Positions 9,307 through 20,559 of a stretch of 64,000 nucleotides of DNA are shown piece after piece; position 1 is the stretch's first letter, and each line of letters starts with the position of its first letter. The notes beneath the pieces were generated by a model. That model did no database searches, was not told the DNA's origin, and was given only the letters and a program-made list of their open reading frames with translations. The stretch comes from Pardosa pseudoannulata (taxonomy: Eukaryota > Arthropoda > Arachnida > Araneae > Lycosidae), in assembly GCA_032207245.1 (NCBI GenBank), contig CM063502.1, forward strand, positions 133,017,205 to 133,081,204, in the 5' to 3' direction. The translations under genes were made by a program, and so were the position numbers.

Positions 9307-11117
9307 TTAGAGATCCAACCTTTCGGGAATTTTAACAGTCCGTCCTAGTCTTGTCTTGTTTGGAACAATTGCGTAGTCGATGGAGTTGTCGTCAGAACAC
9401 TTAGGAATAGCATTCTTCATAGAGACGATTTTTGTAGATAATGCATTTTTGTCAGGTGGAAAAGACGAATCATTAGAAGAGATCTCTAAAGGTAATACGA
9501 GCTGAACTGGACGCAGAATTTCTCCTCGAGATGTTCTAAGTTTAATTAATCGACACACACCGTCTTTCCCTGGCAGAATTTCTGTCACTTTCCCCAGTGG
9601 CCAGTCGATTCTATTGGCGTTGTCACTTTTTATGAGAACAATGTCCCCGGCAGTTATCCTCGAAGTTCTAGTCTTTTCCGGCCTCCTTATCAAAGATCCA
9701 AGATATTCGGACCTGAACATCTTTCGTATGTCCTTCTGCAAAGCTAACCTGTACTTGATACGATGGTTGAGACTTTTATGATCTGCCGCATCACAGTCGG
9801 GAACACCAGAGTTTTTGATATCCTGAAGAAACATCGCAGGGGTAAGTGGAACAAATTCTGAGTCACATTCATCGATGTAAGTCAAAGGGCGTGAGTTGAT
9901 TACAGATTCACAATCACAAATAACTGTTGTCAACTCCTCGAATTCCAAACTTGTTCTTCCAAGTATTCTTCTCAAAAGATTTTTAAGAATACTAATTAGT
10001 CTCTCCCCCCATCCATCCCACCATGGTGATGAACGGGATTAAATTTCCACTTAATTGGACGAAGAACATTGTCGCTACAAATGCGGTCCCAATCTAAACT
10101 TCTAAGCAAATTGGAAGCTCCAACAAAATTAGTGCTATTATCACAGTACATGGTTTCACATCAGCCTCTCCGAGCTATAAATCGTCATAGAGCTAACAAA
10201 AAGCTTTCGGTGGATAGCGATGAAACAAGCTCTAAGTAGACAGCTCTATATACGGCACATGTAAAAATGCATACCCACGCCTTCTTCCCATCTTTTAAAA
10301 ATAAAGGTCCTGCCAGGTCAATTCCACAGATCTCGAACACGTTTGCCTGTCGTATTCGATCTTCAAGCAAAGAAGCAGATACAACATCACAACATTTAGA
10401 AGAAAATCTTTTGCAAACGACACATTTTGAGATAACAGAACTCACTGTTTTTCTTCAACTCAAAATCCAAAAATGTTCTCTCAAAATATTAAGCAAAATT
10501 AGAGTTCCAGCATGATTATTTTTGATATGGTGAGAAAATATTAGTCTTTCGACAACTTTATGATTGGACGGGAGAACAACTGGTTCCCTAAAATCTTCTG
10601 TATCCTGACGGATAATTATTTTCGTCTTGAGCCGTATTATTCTATCGGCATCCTTATACGCACTCAGAGTTTTTAGTTTTGCATCATGCTCGTTCACAAA
10701 AGATTCCGACTGGACCAATTTTATCACTTGTTTTCTGCTACCCTGTATTCTTCAGTATCCAAACTTCCCTTTTTCCTTAGCTGAACATCGCATCTGCAGC
10801 TCTTCACAAATCTCAAAATCCATCCCATTAACTTCACAATGCTTTCATATTTTGAAAATCACTGATAAAACCAGCCTGCAGATGAGCCTTGATTTACAGA
10901 CACCAAAGCTAATATTGAGCTTTTCTTTTTCTCTTTTAGTATCTCATCTTCATCAATCACATATTCATTGCATGGTCCTTCGTCTTCAAATAAAGTAAGC
11001 CATTTTGGCCCCTCCCACCATCTAGTTTTCACTAAAATACTTGCTTTGCATCCTCGGGAGGGTAAATCAGCTGGATTTTCAAATCCAGAAATATGACGCC
11101 AAGAAAAAGCTTGGGGG
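9307..11117 (-). pseudogene. BEL/Pao pol, distal half: RNase H end, integrase, Pao C-terminal domain
   Basis: Reading down the minus strand from 11117: AFSWRHISGFENPADLPSRG is the end of the RNase H region. The H2C2 integrase zinc-binding part follows (RLIFSHHIKNNHAG ... CVVCKRF), then the start of the catalytic core (FEICGIDLAGPLF). The middle of the core near 10000-10180 is frame-broken. The last open part (9307-9975) has the distal integrase plus the Pao C-terminal domain with ITAGDIVLIKSDNANRIDWPLGKV, ending RTVKIPERLDL. At least three frame changes separate these blocks, so no functional polyprotein is made. The run of five C at 11113-11117 (+ strand G) puts the first block one base out of frame with the proximal half. 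Confidence 0.88.
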
Positions 11118-11709
11118 TAATTCCATACCAAATCAACACAAGGTTTCTACCTGACCCCCTCCAATTTTGATTAAATTTGGTATAGTAAGTGACTTAATGT
11201 TAATAAAGAAAATCCCCAAATCTTATGTTCAAATAATAATTGGTTTGGGAGTTATAAGGCTTTAAAGTTGCCAGATTTGTCTAAAAAATACACTATCAGC
11301 ATACCTTTAAATTACACTTGCTACTCACCTAATTAAGTTAGAGATATGTGCAAGGTGTTATTTTAAACCTTTTTTTAATGGGCTTTCATATGACATACAA
11401 CACATGATGACTTGAAAATATTTTTAAAAATTTAAATTTAAATTAAAATTTAAAATTTAAATTTCTCAAAAAGTCAAGTTTTTAAAATTTTGAAAAAAAT
11501 CTCAAAAATTGCTCATATTATTGTTAATTAATCCTCAAAGTTTCATATTGGGATCATAGTGGGATCCCAAGCTACAAAAGTTTTTTGTTGGATATATTTA
11601 CTATTGGAATAACGAAAATGAGAACATGCATTCATTATTTTTAATCTAACTCAGCTGTATAGGATGGCATTAATGCTTACACACTACCTTATCAACATAT
11701 ACTCTAGTA

Positions 11710-14025
11710 CAGGGGTCGGCAACCTGTTTGTTCTTAAGGGCGCGAAACTAAATTTGAAAATCACCGAGGGCGCATATTTTACAGATAATCAAGAGGTATA
11801 AATAGGCATTAAAAAACAGATTTTTTATAACTTTATTTTGTTGGTGTTATACATAATGATACATATAATTCAGTGTGAAACTTTAGTGTCCATATTTTCA
11901 GCTAATTTCTTATAATTGGGGATATATTTAGAGTTCCCGGTCCTTAAACAATTATATAAATGTGAGTCATTAAGCTTTGTTCGGTATTTTGATTTTAAAT
12001 ATTTCATATTTGGGAACAAAGACTCGCAATTGTATGTTGTTGCACAATATGAATAAATTTTAGCGTACATTTCCTTAAAATGGGATACTTATTTTCATCG
12101 ACTAAGTTCCAAAACATTTTATCATTACAATGAGCTTTTAAAATAATATCACTTTGCAAGTTTATTATTTCTAATTCTAGGTCTTCGATATTATGAAGCT
12201 CGAAATACACTGAAACTATTTCAAGGACATCATCTTCAGTAACATTGAATGGATTTATGAAAAATCTTAGAACGGGTTCTAATGCTGCAAAATCTTCAAA
12301 TCTAGACGAAAACTCTTCTATTAGCTTATCTATAATTTCTAAATATGATGTAGCAGTAAAATTTTCATTATTCAAATTTAAACTCTCAACAGTATATTTT
12401 ATATTTGGGAAATGTGATAATGATTTTTTCAATAGATGGGATTTCAACAACACTAATTTGCATTTGAATGAGTTTACTGCACTAATCATGTCAGCGATAT
12501 GCTGATTTTTCCCTTGTATTTTTAAATTTAATTCATTCAACTTTGCAGTTATATCGGTCAGAAATCCGAGGTCGATTATCCAATCCTTATTTTCTAATTG
12601 CTTGTAAAATTCGCCTCTTGATGCAATAAATTCCTTTATTTGTGGCAAAAGCATGATAAACCGTTCAAGTATTTTACCTCTGCTCAGCTACCTCACTTCA
12701 GTATGTAAAAGATCTGTGAACTGAACGTCCTCATCTTCTAAAAGTAATTTAAACAATCTGTGTTGCATAGCTCCCGATTTTATGGAATTAATAATTTTTG
12801 TTACTATCGTAAATACATGTTGAAAACCGATTGTTTTTGCGCATAATATTTCCTGATGTATGAGGCAATGATAAGAAATAAATTTAGGGAATAAGGAATC
12901 CTGTCTACATAAGGCAATAAATCCTTTTTTCTTACCTGTCATCGCTGGTGCCCCGTCTGTTGTAATTGACGATAACTTTTGTACAAGTAATTTTACATCT
13001 GTTATATACTTTTTACAAGTGGAAAAGATATCTTCTTCTCTGGTGCTTCCCTTTAATGGCAGAACTTTAAGGAATTCTTCTTTTGTTGTAAAATTAGAAA
13101 ATACCATGTTCACGCAAATTGCTAATTGTGATATATTTGTCACATTTGTCGATTCATCCATCTGTAGCGAAAAGAAAATACAATTTTCCATATCATTTGC
13201 TAATTCTGCCTCCAAATTCTCCACTATTACTTCAATTCTTCTAGTAACAGTTCGTGCAGATAATTGCAACGTGTTTATAGCTGAAACTATTTCTTTTTTA
13301 TTTTTAAATTCTTCAAAAAGTGAATCAATGGCTTCTAACATGGCTTCTTTCACTAATTCTCCATCTGTAAATGGTTTTTTATTCTTCGCTTGCAAATGCG
13401 ATATTTTATATGACGCGATTGTTGCTGCTTTATGTTGTTGCAGTGATTTAATAAAAAAAACCTTTGCTGGTTAGTTATTGAAGATTTTAAAGAAATAATT
13501 TTTTTTTCTTCTAATTTCAGAGTTCATTGGATAGTCACTATCAAAATTGGTATGAACGGCCTTAAAATGTCGTTCAATATTACTTTTCTTGGGAATCGCA
13601 ACACTATTATTACAAAACAAACAAATACACTTCCCTTTGTAATCAACGAAACAATATAGATGTTCCCATTCATCGTTAAAATAATATGTTCTTTTTCTTT
13701 TACATTTATCCATGAAGGGTTTTGAAAGAAAAGAATTATTTCGGATTACTTGGTAGTTTTAAATGCACGGTCTACGCGTGGTCTATTCGAAATACGATCT
13801 CACACTAACAAAAAACACGTGCGTGTTATTAGATACGCTCAAGGTTAGCAAAATGCTAATCTATGCACAATCCTAAACTCAACTGACTACTTGCTGTATA
13901 TCGCCGTTTGACAAGAGTAAGTAAATCGCTCTGGCTATCATACATTTACATTAGTCCAGTAAGGGTGCATTAAAAATCGATCGGGGGCGCCATGGCGCCC
14001 GCGGGCGCCGCGTTGCCTACCCCTG
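11710..14025 (-). mobile_element. hAT (Buster-like) transposon, copy 1, complete ends
   Basis: Left end CAGGGGTCGGCAACC (11710) and right end GTTGCCTACCCCTG (to 14025) are near-perfect inverted termini. The 8-bp duplication CTCTAGTA flanks them (11702-11709 and 14026-14033). A TA at the centre of the duplication fits the nnnTAnnn target preference described for Buster-group hATs. The transposase gene is on the minus strand with the end-proximal GC-rich stretch (13981-14010) upstream. Confidence 0.93.
11870..13713 (-). pseudogene. hAT transposase (ZBED/SCAND3-like), copy 1, disrupted
   Basis: Starts at the ATG at 13713. Residues 1-70 hold a BED-type zinc finger (YKGKCICLFCNNSVAIPKKS followed by IERHFKAVH). 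The RNase H-like core follows: FFSLQMDESTNVTNISQLAI (Asp region), SITTDGAPAMTGKKKGFIA, YHCLIHQEILCAK, then the conserved VRWLSRG segment where Trp is replaced by TAG (near 12686). The helical insertion and C-terminal dimerisation region (CESLFPNMKYLKSKYRTKL) come last, after a frameshift near 12040. The architecture equals that of vertebrate and arthropod Buster/ZBED relatives. The frame is also broken near 13470. Copy 2 at 36674-38650 shares the TAG and the late frameshift. Confidence 0.9.
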
Positions 14026-14319
14026 CTCTAGTAAATAGTACATTTAACATTTGTGAAGATTTTAGAATGAAGAAAAATCATTAAAGTGCATTACTTTTGA
14101 TGGGTTGTGCTACTTATTTAGTTGAAACTGGTAGAAAGCTTTATGTGTTTTGAGAATTTCTACTTCAGAAAGAATATACATTGGTCCTGTTGGAGTTAAA
14201 GGATTCACCTTACACATAACATCTGAAATTGGAATCCATAGTACATCTGGCTTCATACATTGTGACATAGTACATTGGGATTATAATGGGATCCCAAGCT
14301 ATAAAATACCAAATTAGCT

Positions 14320-16032
14320 TCCATTAACACATGGAAAAATTAACACATACAAGGACTGCCTTGCTATGATGATTTGTAATCCAGCATCAGTCAGCTGCCA
14401 CATGGGAGAGTGTACATCATGTTCTGGGACTACATAATTAAAAACCTTACTTGGTGAAACATTCGATGAAAATATGGTGGAAAAGGTCATTTTCAATCAG
14501 TGGATTTCTGTTGATAGGAGCTCTTTAGAAACAATACAAAAGTCAGCATCAGAATTTATTGACTTATTTTGTGAGAAAATGTCTGTATTAGTTTATCATG
14601 ACTTTGTGGTGAAACAACAAAATTCATTTATAAATAATATAAAAGAAAATTTAAAAGATTCAGAGTTTGTAGGTCTTCTTGATTTTGCTGAAAATTACTT
14701 ATTTGTCATACAGGATGAGGCCCAGAGCTGCCACTGGACTAATGTTCAATCTACAACTCACCCATTTGTTGTATATTACAAAGGAAAGGGAATTGACCAC
14801 TTTACATACATTGTAATTTAAGACTGTTTGGAGCCCAATACAGTCGCAGTTTACTGTTTTCAAAAGAAGCTTATTACTTTTTTCAACTCTTCTTCTTAGC
14901 CCACTCTCCTGTTTCTAATCATGGATCTTGTTGGTGCTTCAACCACATTTGGCGAAATTGGCGTGCTTGCAGCTTGCGTGCGTGGCGTGCTTGCAGCGTG
15001 GCGTTTGAAATCTGGCAAGGGGATAGTAACTCAACAAATTGATACATAAACAAAAACAACATTTTGAGGAAAAATTTTGCAAAAATTTTGAAAAAAATTG
15101 GAAAATACCAAGAGAAAGTTAGTCCAAAGGGATGAGGGAGGGTAGGCGGGGTCTCATCCAGCAAAAAACTCTTTGACTTAAAAGAAACTGTATTTTGAGT
15201 GGAGGTTGAAGAGGAGTTGTAAAATTGAAAATTTTTTTCAAATCTCTTATTTAAGACAGAATTTAAAAAAAAGTGCAAGGAAAATATTTTATTTCTCAGA
15301 TGGGTGATCTGCAAAATATATAAATAAGAAAAACTTTGCCAATCTATGCTTACATAAGGAATATTTTGGAATTGAGGCAGAATGGAATTTTTGGGCAATT
15401 GCTTATGGTAAAGGACCTTGTGATGGGGTAAGAGGTACACTCAAGAGTTAGTGGCTCGAGCAAGCCTACTACGACCATATAAAAATCAAATACTTACACC
15501 ACAACTTTTTAACTGGGTACAGGAAATCATCACAGGAATACATTTTGTTTTTCAGACCAAGACGAACATGTTTCTACAGTTATATTTCTAGATGACCGAT
15601 TTGAAAATGCTTATGCAATTCCTGGGACTCGGAAATATCATGCTTTTATACCCACAGAATCAAAAACAAAAGTCTTTGAGAAGACATTTTCCTTTTCACA
15701 AGATTTATTGATGCAAACTGCGATAGCATCACAATAAAAGCTTCTATTTGCTGATATAAAAAGCTATATTACTGCTGTTTATAATTGCAACTGGTGGCTT
15801 ACATTTATGTTAAGAGAAAGACTCTGAAGAGGTAAAAGTGACATTCCTTCACTCATTTGAACCATCACCATCTTTTTTATATCTATATAAAACAGATGTA
15901 CTATGGATTCCAATTTCAGATGTTATGTGTAAGGTGAATCCTTTAACTCCAACAGGACCAATGTATATTCTTTCTGAAGTAGAAATTCTCAAAACACATA
16001 AAGCTTTCTACCAGTTTCAACTAAATAAGTAG
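14320..16032 (+). pseudogene. Putative D/D/E-type transposase of the long-TIR element, decayed
   Basis: I do not recognise a named family, although related hypothetical proteins occur in repeat-rich invertebrate genomes as far as I recall. In order: a cysteine cluster CNPASVSCHMGECTSCSG (about 14369-14422), a helical part starting MVEKVIFNQWISVDRSSL, LLDFAENYLFVIQDEAQSCHW with a first Asp (about 14680), THPFVVYYKG, FQKKLI, the insert at 14884-15219, FYFSDG with a second Asp (about 15296; the next codon is a TGA stop), FGIEAEWNFWAIAYGKGPCD with a Glu (about 15370), RFENAYAIPGTRKYHAFIP, and a C-terminal domain VTFLHSFEPSPSFLYLYK ... DVLWIPISDVMCKVNPLTP ending at the TAG/TAA region 16030-16032. 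Stops and at least three frameshifts kill it. The last 46 codons lie inside the right TIR. That the acidic residues are catalytic is inference. Confidence 0.7.
14884..15219. mobile_element. Small insert with inverted termini (MITE-like) inside the long-TIR gene
   Basis: CAACTCTTCTTC at 14884-14895 and GAAGAGGAGTTG at 15208-15219 are inverted copies with one mismatch. The stretch between interrupts the protein alignment between FQKKLI and KIFYFSDG. It contains no transposase. T-runs on both sides blur the exact target duplication; the true right border may reach about 15230. Confidence 0.55.
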
Positions 16033-16702
16033 CACAATCCATCAAAAGTAATGCACTTTAATGATTTTTCTTCATTCTAAAATCTTCACAAATGTTAAAT
16101 GTACTATTTACTAGAGTATATGTGGATAAGGTAGTGTGTAAACATTAATGCCATCGTATACAGCTGAGTTAGATTAAAAGTAATGAATGCATGTTCTCAT
16201 TTTCGTTATTCCAATAATAAATATATCCAACAAAAAAACTTTTGTAGCTTGGGATTCCATTATGATCCCAACATGAAACTTTGAGGATTAATTAACAATA
16301 ATATGAGCAATTTTTGAGATTTTTTTCAAAATTTTAAAAACTTGGCTTTTTGAGAAATTTTTAAATTTTAAATTTTAATTTAAATTTTTAAAATAATTTT
16401 CAAGTCATTATGTGTTGTATATCATATGAAAGCCCATTAAAAAAGGTTTAAAATAACACCTTGCACATATCTCTAGCTTAATTAGGTGAGTAGCAAGTGT
16501 AATTTAAAGGTATGCTGATAGTGTATTTTTTAGACAAATCTGACAACTTTAAAGCCTTATAACTCCCAAACCAATTATTATTTGAACATAAGATTTGGGG
16601 ATTTTCTTTATTACCATGAAGTCACTTACTCTACCAAATTTAATCAAAATTGGAGGGGGTCAGGTAGAATTTGTTCTAAAATTGTGTTGATTTCACATGG
16701 AA
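15893..16702 (+). repeat. Right long terminal inverted repeat
   Basis: Reverse complement of the left repeat, about 810 bp. It contains the stop codon and the last 46 codons of the element's gene (15893-16032) and then about 670 bp of non-coding, very AT-rich DNA rich in AAATTTTAA motifs. Confidence 0.9.
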
Positions 16703-16705
16703 TAA

Positions 16706-19090
16706 CCTTTGGCTAATATTCCGTATTTCTTGGACTCTGTTATTCACGAAAATAGACCAATTTTCATCTTTAGTGATCCAGGTAAGAACGGTAGTAGAAT
16801 CACTCCAATAAAAAACATCTAATATCCGTCCATCCAAGAGCATCCAACACAGATTTCGTTAATCTTGCTCCCACCAATGCAGCAAGAAGCTCCAATCTTG
16901 GAATTGTAGCAATTTTCAGAGGAGATATTCGTGATCTCGAGGCTAAAAAAATGCACCTTTCCACATTCTTCCTCTTGTACAAGATACGTAACGGCGGCAT
17001 ATGCATCTCTACTTGCGTCACAAAAGGTATGAATGGAGAAGTTCTTCATATTTTCTGGATTAACGTTGATCCAGTGAGGAACGGTAACATTTTCCAATAC
17101 TTTTAGTTCCCTAAACCATTGTAAAAATTCTTGTCGCAGGGATCCAGTGATTTCTTCGTCTCATTCCAGCGATAATTTCCAGGTTTTTTGTAGCATAATT
17201 TTGGGACAAAGCATTACAGGAGATACAAATCCCAATGGATCAAACACTTTGTGAGTAACCGATAATATTTTACGTTTAGTAATGTTGTCGACATTTACTT
17301 CTTTCAACCAGCTGATATTTAGAGAAAAACAGTCTTCAATTTTATTCCATTGAAGGCCTAACAGATCTGTTTTGAAGGATCTTCCATCCTCTGTTAGTGA
17401 AGATTCCCAATCCCGCAGAATAAAACCACCTTTTTTTAATAACTCATTAGAAACACTTATCACTCGCTGCAAATCTAATTCACCGTGGACGCTGGTTACA
17501 AGATTGTCCACATAAAAACTCTTCAAAAGACAACTAGTTACAAACGGATCAAAGTCAGTATTTTGTTCAAAATGATACTTCAATACAGCTCCTAGTAGAA
17601 AAGGACTGCTGCGAACGCCAAAAACTACTCTGGTATGCCGAAAAATCCTGTAGTCTTTGCAAGACTTATTTTTCCACCATAGAAATCTCAAGAAGTCTCT
17701 GTCTTCTCTACAAAGGCTTTCTTTATGTCTGCGATTACACCAATCTTCTTTTCTCGAAAACGCAGCAAAATATCAGGAATGAGCTCAATCAAGTTTGGAC
17801 CACTATGTAAGGAGTCATTTAGGGACGGATGTCCTTTGATTCGAGCAGATGCATCAAAAACTGGGCGAATAGGAGTTGTCTTACTAACTTTGATAACAGG
17901 TCTGTGAGGTAGATAACTAGCAGGCAAATCTTTATCTTCAATTGGTATTTCTTCTATAATTCCTTCACTCAGCCATTCGAAAAATATACCCTCATAACTA
18001 TCATACAAATTTTCCTGAAATAACTTCTTGGTTGTGGTGTCTAACCTTCTTTTAGCTTGCTCAAAATTATCAGGTAAAGGCACACAGTTATCTAACCAAG
18101 GCAAATGAACTTCATAGCGATTATCTTCATTGTACCTAACAGTTTGAAGAAAATTTTCAGTAGTCAAATTCTCTTGCTCTTTTTTAGACAGCTTTTCAAT
18201 AGGATCCTTGATTCCAATAGAGTCCAGTTTCCAGAAGTCCGAAATGTCAAACTCTTTAGCGAAAAGTGATGTCACTAACATGGCATTGCTTGTAGTAACT
18301 TTACTATCAGGAACTTTCCCTAACAAAGTCCACCCAAGCAAAGTTTCAATGGCTACTAATCCGCATGGTAAGACCCTAAGCTGACCGATTAAAATCTTTC
18401 CAAAAAGATCAGCTCCTATAAGTACTTGTACAGGTTGTAGCTTTTCTCCAACATCACTCAATGTTATATCTTTTTCTTGAAGCTCTTTTAACCAAGGCCC
18501 GGAGTTCACAGGTGATACATCATTACAAATAGCTACCTGATCCAAAGCTTCAAAGTTGCACGCAAAATTGTTCTTAATATTTTTCAACCTAATTCTGTAA
18601 CATGTATGTACAAATTCTTTAGATTTAATCCCGCCAAAGAGTGAATGTACCAGAGTTTCTTTCTTTACAGGAACGTATCCCATTTCTTCGGCAAGACTCT
18701 TTACAATATAAGACTTTTGCGAGTCGGTGTCCAGAACAATTCGCACGATTTTCTCTTTTTGATCTGATATGAGCTTGCACTTTAGAATCTGTAAAAACAC
18801 TTTAGGACCCACACTCAGGTTGAACATGTTGACCTCGTCGAAAACTTCAGCTTCTTCCGTCTTCTTGAAATCATTTTTTCTTGACTCGTTTGTTTCGCAC
18901 ATCAAGGGAACATGTTTCTTCCCGCAAATTACACATCTCAAAAATGAACGACATTTTCGGACTGGGTGACCGGGAACCAGACAGGCAAAACAGCAATTTT
19001 TTTCCTCAGAATCTTTTGTTTTTCATCTAAACTCATTTTTTGTGCAGAAAAACAGTCTGCACTGGGATGAGTTTTCTCGCAAAACACACA
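16706..19090 (-). pseudogene. BEL/Pao pol, proximal half: zinc knuckles, protease, RT, RNase H
   Basis: From 19090 downward: Cys/His knuckles CVFCEKTHPSADC, CFACLVPGHPVRKC and CVICGKKHVPLMC, with two frame changes between them. The Pao aspartic protease follows (IVLDTDSQKSYIVKSLAEEM; the family usually has D-S/T-G-S here). RT begins at LPHRPVIKV and continues RPVFDASARIKGHPSLND, IADIKKAF, then a frameshift near 17690, FLWWKN, FGVRSSPFLLGAVLKYH and SFYVDNLVTSV, which is the YVDD-box position with Asn in the fourth place. RNase H begins at FSIHTFCDASRDAYAAVTY. A TGA at about 17161 and the long-TIR insertion end the frame. The element once encoded a particle-forming, self-integrating polyprotein; this copy cannot. 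Confidence 0.9.
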
Positions 19091-20138
19091 TGACGTTGGT
19101 TTCATGAATATGTGGATTGGTGAAAAGACCGGAGGCGGTGGGTGTTTTATTTTGTTTTACTCTTGGTTCAAATTTCTTATTTCTAAACCCAATGTTGTCT
19201 TTCTTTTTGTTTAAGCCGAAACCTTGCATCGTCAAACAAATCCTTTCTTCTGATTCTACTTCAGATTTTAAGAATTTTAGTAAGCTACTAAGCCTTTCTT
19301 GTGGTTCGCCACTATGTTTGAAATCAGGACCTCTTTGTCTTTGCCATGCTCTTAGTATATTTTCCGGTAAGCATGACTCAACCAAAGGATGAAGTAGAGC
19401 AGCGCTTTTATCCGTTGTTATGCCAAGTGTATCTAATGCCCTAATCTGAGACTCCAAATGGTCATACAGCGTACATAAATTAACAGTCGAACTTTGCGAA
19501 GCGTTTTGTAAAACCAATTTTAAAAGCTCGCGGACATAGAATTCTATAAGTAAATCAGTTCGACCAAAACGTGATTTTAAAGATTCAACAGCTTTGGCGT
19601 AGTTGGCGCCGGTGGGTGGAAAACTTTCCACTACCTCCCGAGCTCGTGAGCCTCTAACGGTTGCTTGCACTAAATACTGAAATTTATTTTCTGGTGCTAT
19701 ATCAACATCGTTATGAACATGTTCGAACTGGCTCCAAAAAGGCAACCAGTCCTTTAAATCTCCCGAAAAATGGCGTAATTCTAACTTAGGTATGTGAAAT
19801 TTCTTTTTTACACTACCTGACTCTGGAGTTTTATCATCTTGAGTATCTAAAACTGTCCGGGAGTTTAATTTCATCAAATCCAACTCATGTTGCCTTTGTC
19901 GTTCTCTTTCATCTTCTTGGTGCTTTCTCTCTTCGTCTTGGCCTTCTTTTTTCTGTCTTTCAGAAACAGTTGTGGCTAGTACGGTTGAAACAAAGTCCGG
20001 ATCATTTTTATATTCTTTACTGTTTAAAATTACATCTTTCGGTGTAGATATAGTAACCTTCAACGGTAAGTCCTCATTGATCTCTTGACACAAATAAATT
20101 AGGTCTTCTTTCTTGAAGCCTTTAACAGATGTAAACAT
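19026..20138 (-). CDS. BEL/Pao Gag (DUF1759-type capsid region)
   Basis: Start chosen at the ATG at 20138 (MFTSVKGFKKEDLIYL), 17 nt inside the primer-binding site; the longer open frame runs back into the LTR A-tract and is not meaningful. About 370 residues: an acidic/basic coiled stretch (ERQKKEGQDEERKHQEDERE, residues about 60-80) precedes the conserved Pao capsid core, with IPKLELRHFSGDLKDWLPFW, VESLKSRFGRTDLLIEFYV and LYDHLESQIRALDTLGI. The frame is open through the core but leaves the proper frame just before the first zinc knuckle, so the C-terminal 20 residues printed by this frame are not native. It would form the cytoplasmic particle shell. Confidence 0.85.
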
Positions 20139-20154
20139 ATTGACACTTAATAGT

Positions 20155-20170
20155 CCTGTCGCGGACGCCA
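20155..20170 (-). other. Primer-binding site of the BEL/Pao element
   Basis: Minus strand TGGCGTCCGCGACAGG begins 2 nt after the end of the 5' LTR. TGG is the complement of a tRNA CCA end. The donor tRNA is not identified. Confidence 0.65.
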
Positions 20171-20172
20171 GA

Positions 20173-20176
20173 TGTC

Positions 20177-20209
<33 letters not shown>

Positions 20210-20559
20210 AAAAAAAAGAGTTTCTTGTGTTGAAAATTAATACTCCAAAAGTATTAATACTGCCAAATCTCATTTATTTCACAAATTAACATGCAAACTA
20301 GAGTCCAAGACTCACCTAGTTATATAACAATTTTTTCATAGAACACTGTTAAATTAAACAAAACAGAACGAGAACTAGCTTGTTGCCACAGCGTACAAAA
20401 TAATATACTTATCATAATGAATATCGTTTTCAATATCGTTCAGTTCACGGTGACAAAAATTAAACAATGATAAATAAATTCACGTAAACAAAATAATAAA
20501 TTTAAATAATTGTTTTGCTTTTAACATAATAAACCGAAATTTATAAAGTGGATCTCACA
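20173..20559 (-). repeat. 5' LTR of the BEL/Pao element
   Basis: 387 bp, TGTGAGATCC ... TTTTACGACA on the minus strand. It differs from the 3' LTR by scattered substitutions, a 12-bp duplication of CAATATCGTTTT and an expanded A-run of about 30 at 20179-20208. Confidence 0.92.

Follow-up and report, generated by a model that had tools for sequence, protein, structure and literature searches.

A 64,000-nucleotide stretch of the Pardosa pseudoannulata genome (the window; G000:C6:133017205-133081204 of a 2.4-Gb assembly) contains a DNA transposon with long terminal inverted repeats (TIRs), which is present in many copies in the genome and has relatives in several animal groups. In all likelihood, the window copy is a dead, non-autonomous, deletion-derived copy of a cut-and-paste element with TIRs of about 810 bp that was inserted into a Pao-type retroelement. 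It is one of a set of 2.9-kb derivatives that have a deletion junction in common, and it lacks about the first 320 codons of the transposase gene. The target-site duplication (TSD) of the element is 4 bp long, not 3 bp.

Termini, target duplication and host site

The initial annotation of the window, made from its letters alone, described two matching inverted repeats of about 805-810 bp bounded on both sides by TAA, which was read as the target duplication. The repeats were recovered: within these bounds the left one is 805 bp long, with a nested element excluded, and the right one 810 bp; 774 of 816 alignment columns are identical, and the innermost ~210 bp are nearly unchanged. TAA indeed flanks 11121-16702 on both sides. 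However, it lies within the TIR, and the element extends over 11115-16708, between duplicated copies of TTGG (Table 1).

The bounds were set by comparison with other copies. The outer 210 bp of the left TIR, used as a genome probe with 40 of 1,414 candidates scored, gave 40 places at 98-100% identity, including the window and its duplicate, plus one weak match. Sequence was retrieved at about 9.7 kb for 20 places and at about 3.3 kb for ten, and nine places were left out. Copy ends were located with a tip sequence from which the first six bases had been removed. Each of the 31 A-type ends reads NNNTAA (GGGTAA in 29), and each of the 22 B-type ends reads NNNTTA (GGGTTA in 18), while the bases farther out vary; the most frequent right-end sequence is TAACCC. 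Since TAA or TTA is constant within every tip, it is part of the terminus and not a target duplication.

The TSD survey covered 34 sequences (33 loci and the window), with both ends located in 24 and not in the other 10. Two loci were dropped as duplicates of other insertions (L009 of that in the window, L011 of that at L010), leaving 22 independent two-ended copies. The flanking duplications were tabulated over these copies, as the initial annotation had advised, and 18 of the 22 carry an exact 4-bp TSD. In locus direction, these read TTGG, AGTA, ATAG, GTAT, GTAC, TATA, ATAT, TACT, TTCT, TTTC, ATTT, GGTT, AGTA, ACAA, TATT, AAAT, GTAT and ATAT. Flanks swapped among the 24 two-ended copies agree in 13 of 552 cases.

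The host sequence provides a second line of evidence. The window insertion is located in a Pao-type retroelement on the minus strand (about 10185-11114 and 16713-20273). With one TTGG between the joined flanks, a single open frame runs across the site; with one TAA, the frame is shifted. In the right flank, two open reading frames (ORFs) have above-cut-off matches to Peptidase_A17, and one farther out matches DUF1759; three other host-flank ORFs had no match in the same domain scan. The insertion of the window, with the same flanks, is also present on an unplaced 61-kb contig (L009, G000:C281:29127-38900), which is an alternative haplotype or a duplicate of the window locus.

Full-length relatives and interior orientation

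When the genome was searched with the protein P0045, 58 of 2,064 candidates were scored and 68 matches obtained, three of which start before residue 200: L029 (C6:57914352, residue 3), L031 (C6:155471723, residue 186) and the more distant L030 (C5:154607495, residue 70). Six others start at residues 269-305, and the rest at 322 or later. L029 is 4,666 bp long, with a 4-bp TSD and TIRs of about 800 bp; its homology to P0045 spans residues 2-768, distributed over two frames and interrupted by a stop. L031 is 4,550 bp long with TIRs of 700-760 bp, and residues 2-765 of P0045 are homologous in pieces. In the window copy and in all eight further derivatives that were compared, the positions corresponding to 852 and 2627 of L029 are joined. 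The shared junction indicates a single founder deletion, in which the upstream region was lost together with roughly 320 codons at the start of the gene. Three short copies of 753-945 bp (L010, L012 and L034) possess both tips and match no part of the interior.

A single gene on the plus strand had been annotated within the element. The transposase sequence is on that strand, and the Cys cluster and the motifs DFAENY, FSDG and AEWNF were confirmed from ORF segments in the order described, but the gene is a relic: its tblastn homology to P0033 begins at residue 348 of 793, and it carries stops, frame changes and an insert of ~360 bp. The first part of the relic is 56% identical by tblastn to P0033, 55% to P0001 and 37% to P0014, and 32 related proteins are 33-56% identical to a query built from the relic. 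As annotated, the stop codon and about 46 final codons lie in the right TIR, and their antisense copy in the left one. The gene also ends inside the right TIR in both L029 and L031, and coding TIRs are thus present in the full-length relatives. The TIR might give rise to an antisense RNA. Just inside the left TIR of L029, at element positions 820-1215, there is a second partial TIR copy, 79-84% identical, which suggests repeated rearrangement of the TIRs.

The A and B tips differ within their first ~37 bases, so the orientation of the interior relative to the tips can be read. Among the 22 copies, the interior is oriented one way in eight and the other way in ten, three copies lack an interior, and one (L028, 4971-9450) is an inverted dimer containing both orientations within an intact GGTT duplication. 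On a tree of 18 interiors, the orientation needs three changes, two of which are forced by starred branches; L029 and L031 form a starred pair and differ in orientation. The occurrence of both orientations leads us to infer recombination between TIRs, by which the interior probably becomes inverted with respect to the tips. Gene conversion of the ~37-bp tips without inversion of the interior is the less probable explanation, although it is a serious one: beyond the tips, the TIRs of the A and B sides are indistinguishable (mean identities of 0.968 for A-A, 0.967 for B-B and 0.967 for A-B among 15 derivatives, a set that leaves out L029, L031, the window and other loci), and the length of a converted tract is therefore unreadable. 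Against it stands L028, since an inverted dimer with a TSD is the product expected from recombination between TIRs. No strong homogenisation was seen between paired TIRs in these derivatives, with identities of 0.974 within and 0.967-0.968 between elements.

Transposase core and affiliation

In models and alignments of the transposase, the secondary structure elements follow the order b1-b2-b3-a1-b4-a-b5-a of RNase H, and acids are placed near b1, near b4 and near the helix after b5; this element order and these acid positions are those of the DDE/D fold (PMC5718144). The structure prediction proposed in the initial annotation thus gives an RNase H-type core. D442 is modelled after b1, D525 after b4 and D566, the Asp of a CDG motif, at the start of the helix after b5, while the Glu of AEWNF falls in strand b5. 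The CDG position is D or E in all 63 proteins compared, and the AEWNF position is E in 58. In the D/D/E nuclease that had been annotated, the type of core is retained, but the third catalytic acid is more likely the Asp of CDG, with a predicted D/D/D triad.

Searches of structure and sequence collections added little to this assignment. Among viral models, Foldseek gave E values below 0.001 for two entries, one a phage RNase H and the other a terminase, which is consistent with an RNase H-type core and nothing beyond it. A search of the PDB by sequence gave one match only, with E 0.6. The transposases that appeared were mariner and IstA in the VIA lists and TnsB in the Foldseek lists; the absence of other superfamilies from these lists is no evidence. 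Relatives were confirmed in none of 41 pattern stretches from viral contigs and none of 91 from prokaryote genomes, and a literature search for superfamilies with TAA and long TIRs found no paper with at least four of five terms.

The Sola superfamily (Sola1-3), reportedly founded in a paper by Bao et al. in 2009, consists of groups that differ in termini and target preference. By its described features, the element probably belongs to this superfamily, with the subgroup left open. Sola elements have a DDD transposase, a 4-bp TSD and TIRs of 11-1124 bp and are mostly 2-9 kb long (PMC10741241), and the undescribed or poorly described superfamily of the initial annotation is not demonstrated, because this family has the same properties. 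Its DDD triad is assigned from model positions and conservation in 63 proteins, its TSD is 4 bp, it is found in metazoans, and its TIRs of ~810 bp and full-length relatives of 4,666 and 4,550 bp are within the Sola ranges, which is non-discriminating. A difference is the gene end in the TIR, as no coding TIR end was noticed in the part of the Sola description that was available.

Galileo, a member of the P superfamily from Drosophila, likewise has inverted repeats of at least 600 bp and deletion derivatives (PMC3573991), but its transposase is of the P superfamily and we claim no protein relationship with the window family. Zator shares cut-and-paste transposition and a DDE/D transposase but has a 3-bp TSD (PMC10045372). 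The 4-bp TSD also differs from the 2-bp TA duplication of Tc1/mariner and the 7-12 bp of MULE (both PMC10741241), and from the 3 bp of PIF/Harbinger (PMC2213677), for which no Pfam match above the cut-off was obtained in 10 family proteins; the wider PHIS group has TSDs of 0-4 bp (PMC10045372). The TTAA duplication of piggyBac and Kolobok (PMC9587614) is found in none of the 18 exact TSDs, and the 5'-TG...CA-3' termini of Ginger (PMC10741241) differ from the GGGTWA termini here. Mos1 of Tc1/mariner and retroviral integrases have the fold alone in common with the family, and the sole PDB sequence match is another protein.

Several observations weigh against parts of this account. Four of the 22 copies (L031, L034, L037 and L040) have no exact 4-bp TSD, and the last-listed ATAT (L038) is in an AT repeat, where 2- and 6-bp matches are present as well. 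L029 and L031 are both decayed, and there is no intact source among the scored candidates. L030, with 35-39% amino acid identity, has inverted repeats of ~490 bp that end well before the gene, and coding TIRs are therefore at most a lineage trait; one of its tips reads GGGTCATTCCATGTC, the other is degraded, and no TSD is readable. Orientation is clustered on the tree (shuffles average 6.1 changes, and 7 and 10 of 500 reached a number as low as that observed), which indicates few flips followed by multiplication of both forms. D566 is not singled out by conservation, since D546 is D or E in all 63 proteins and E445 is E in 62, and its choice consequently rests on the model. Foldseek found no PDB match reaching E 0.001, and the top rows included TnsB, Argonaute, HYPE-BiP and GRP78 in one search; in the other they included Argonaute, a viral terminase nuclease and NurA. 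Membership of Sola rests on generic features taken from descriptions, and the AWWT TSDs of the Sola2 families of amoebozoans (PMC3627910) fit 4 of the 18 exact TSDs.

Three further explanations were weighed. We regard it as unlikely that the family is an unnamed superfamily other than Sola, with a metazoan DDD transposase and a 4-bp TSD. No protein of the family matched a model above the cut-off in Pfam (10 proteins) or NCBIfam (7 proteins), no Pfam domain is listed in the 120 of 903 relatives viewed, and the strings DFAENY, FAENYS and DFSENYS were found in no paper of the literature search; however, the lack of a Pfam model proves little, and the DDD triad, 4-bp TSD, long variable TIRs and length of 2-9 kb are already printed for Sola. 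A fuller version is slightly less likely still: in one lineage of such a superfamily (with GGGTWATTCCAT tips), the long TIRs would have expanded across the 3' gene end, recombination between them could flip the interior with an intact gene end left in each orientation, and both isomers would multiply. The coding TIR could also be an accident of the deletion derivative, an inverted duplication of its right end, which would agree with the missing N-terminal part and with repeats in L030 that stop before the gene. The full-length L029 and L031, with TIRs of ~700-800 bp overlapping the gene end, make this very improbable, and it is largely rejected. The D/D/E transposon with a 3-bp TAA duplication that was originally annotated is hardly credible, because beyond the TAA flanks in the window it faces the constant TAA/TTA inside all tips, the 4-bp TSDs, the broken host frame, and an AEWNF Glu that is in strand b5 and less conserved than the CDG acid.

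The window copy also carries two insertions (Table 1). The 2,316-bp element nested in the left TIR is one that we take to be hAT-like from its termini, 8-bp duplication and protein type; its protein matches Pfam DUF4371 with E 0.0007, under the cut-off of that model. No clear TIRs or duplication were seen for the ~360-bp insert. A 33-bp motif with a palindrome-like core occurs in the TIR (11547-11579) and again just inside it (14274-14306), the copies being 91% identical; judged by sequence, it is a possible binding site.

Table 1 Features of the transposon copy in the window and of its insertion site.
Feature	Positions	Strand	Remarks
Whole element, including nested insertions	11115..16708	+	termini GGGTAATTCCAT...ATGGAATAACCT; based on a tip comparison (31 A ends, 22 B ends), both ends located there
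Left 4-bp target duplication	11111..11114	.	TTGG; of two joins tried, only this restores the host frame
Right 4-bp target duplication	16709..16712	.	TTGG
Left (5') TIR, outer part, ahead of nested element	11115..11709	+	
Left (5') TIR, inner part	14034..14249	+	last ~46 transposase codons in antisense
Right (3') TIR	15893..16708	+	first ~137 bp are the transposase gene end
Transposase relic, first part	14324..14886	+	Cys cluster; predicted first catalytic Asp, D of DFAENY, 14681-14683; from tblastn and ORF segments
Transposase relic, second part	15250..16032	+	predicted second Asp (FSDG) 15299-15301; strand-b5 Glu (AEWNF) 15380-15382; predicted third Asp (CDG) 15422-15424; C-terminal domain; stop 16030-16032
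Insert of ~360 bp in transposase, unclassified	14887..15249	.	absent from 4 other aligned copies; boundaries approximate
Nested hAT-like element, 2,316 bp, within left TIR	11710..14025	-	termini CAGGGGTCGGCAACC...; protein remnants 12004-13713 on minus strand
Left 8-bp duplication of nested element	11702..11709	.	CTCTAGTA
Right 8-bp duplication of nested element	14026..14033	.	CTCTAGTA

Proposed history and meaning

Based on the comparison of the window copy with its relatives, a history of the element can be proposed. The transposase, of ~770 amino acids, would be supplied by full-length relatives and is predicted to comprise an N-terminal Cys-containing helical part, the Cys cluster, an RNase H-type core with a D-D-(40)-D triad and a small C-terminal beta domain. 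It presumably binds the TIR tips (GGGTWATTCCAT...) and excises the element, and the joining of the excised element to staggered cuts would generate the 4-bp target duplications. A founder appears to have lost ~1.77 kb, with some 320 initial codons among the sequence removed, and its 2.9-kb derivative may then have been amplified in trans. One of the resulting copies is that in the window, later hit by the hAT-like element and the ~360-bp insert. Inward spread of the TIR plausibly brought the last ~46 codons of the gene into it. Comparable processes have been suggested for Galileo (PMC3573991), in which TIRs would lengthen by taking in internal sequence and would recombine with one another, and such an extension would explain the gene end in the TIR. 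Recombination between the long TIRs probably then flips the interior relative to the tips.

The element is ordinary in kind and useful in detail. In its main features it agrees with a group that already has a name. For a large family of animal transposases, which is reached by no Pfam or NCBIfam model at the cut-off in the proteins scanned, it supplies the ends, a target duplication and probable catalytic residues. It also illustrates that a reading from a single copy easily mistakes a conserved terminal TAA for a target duplication. If the flipping is true, long-TIR transposons with the gene end in the TIR would be natural mobile elements that survive their own inversion.
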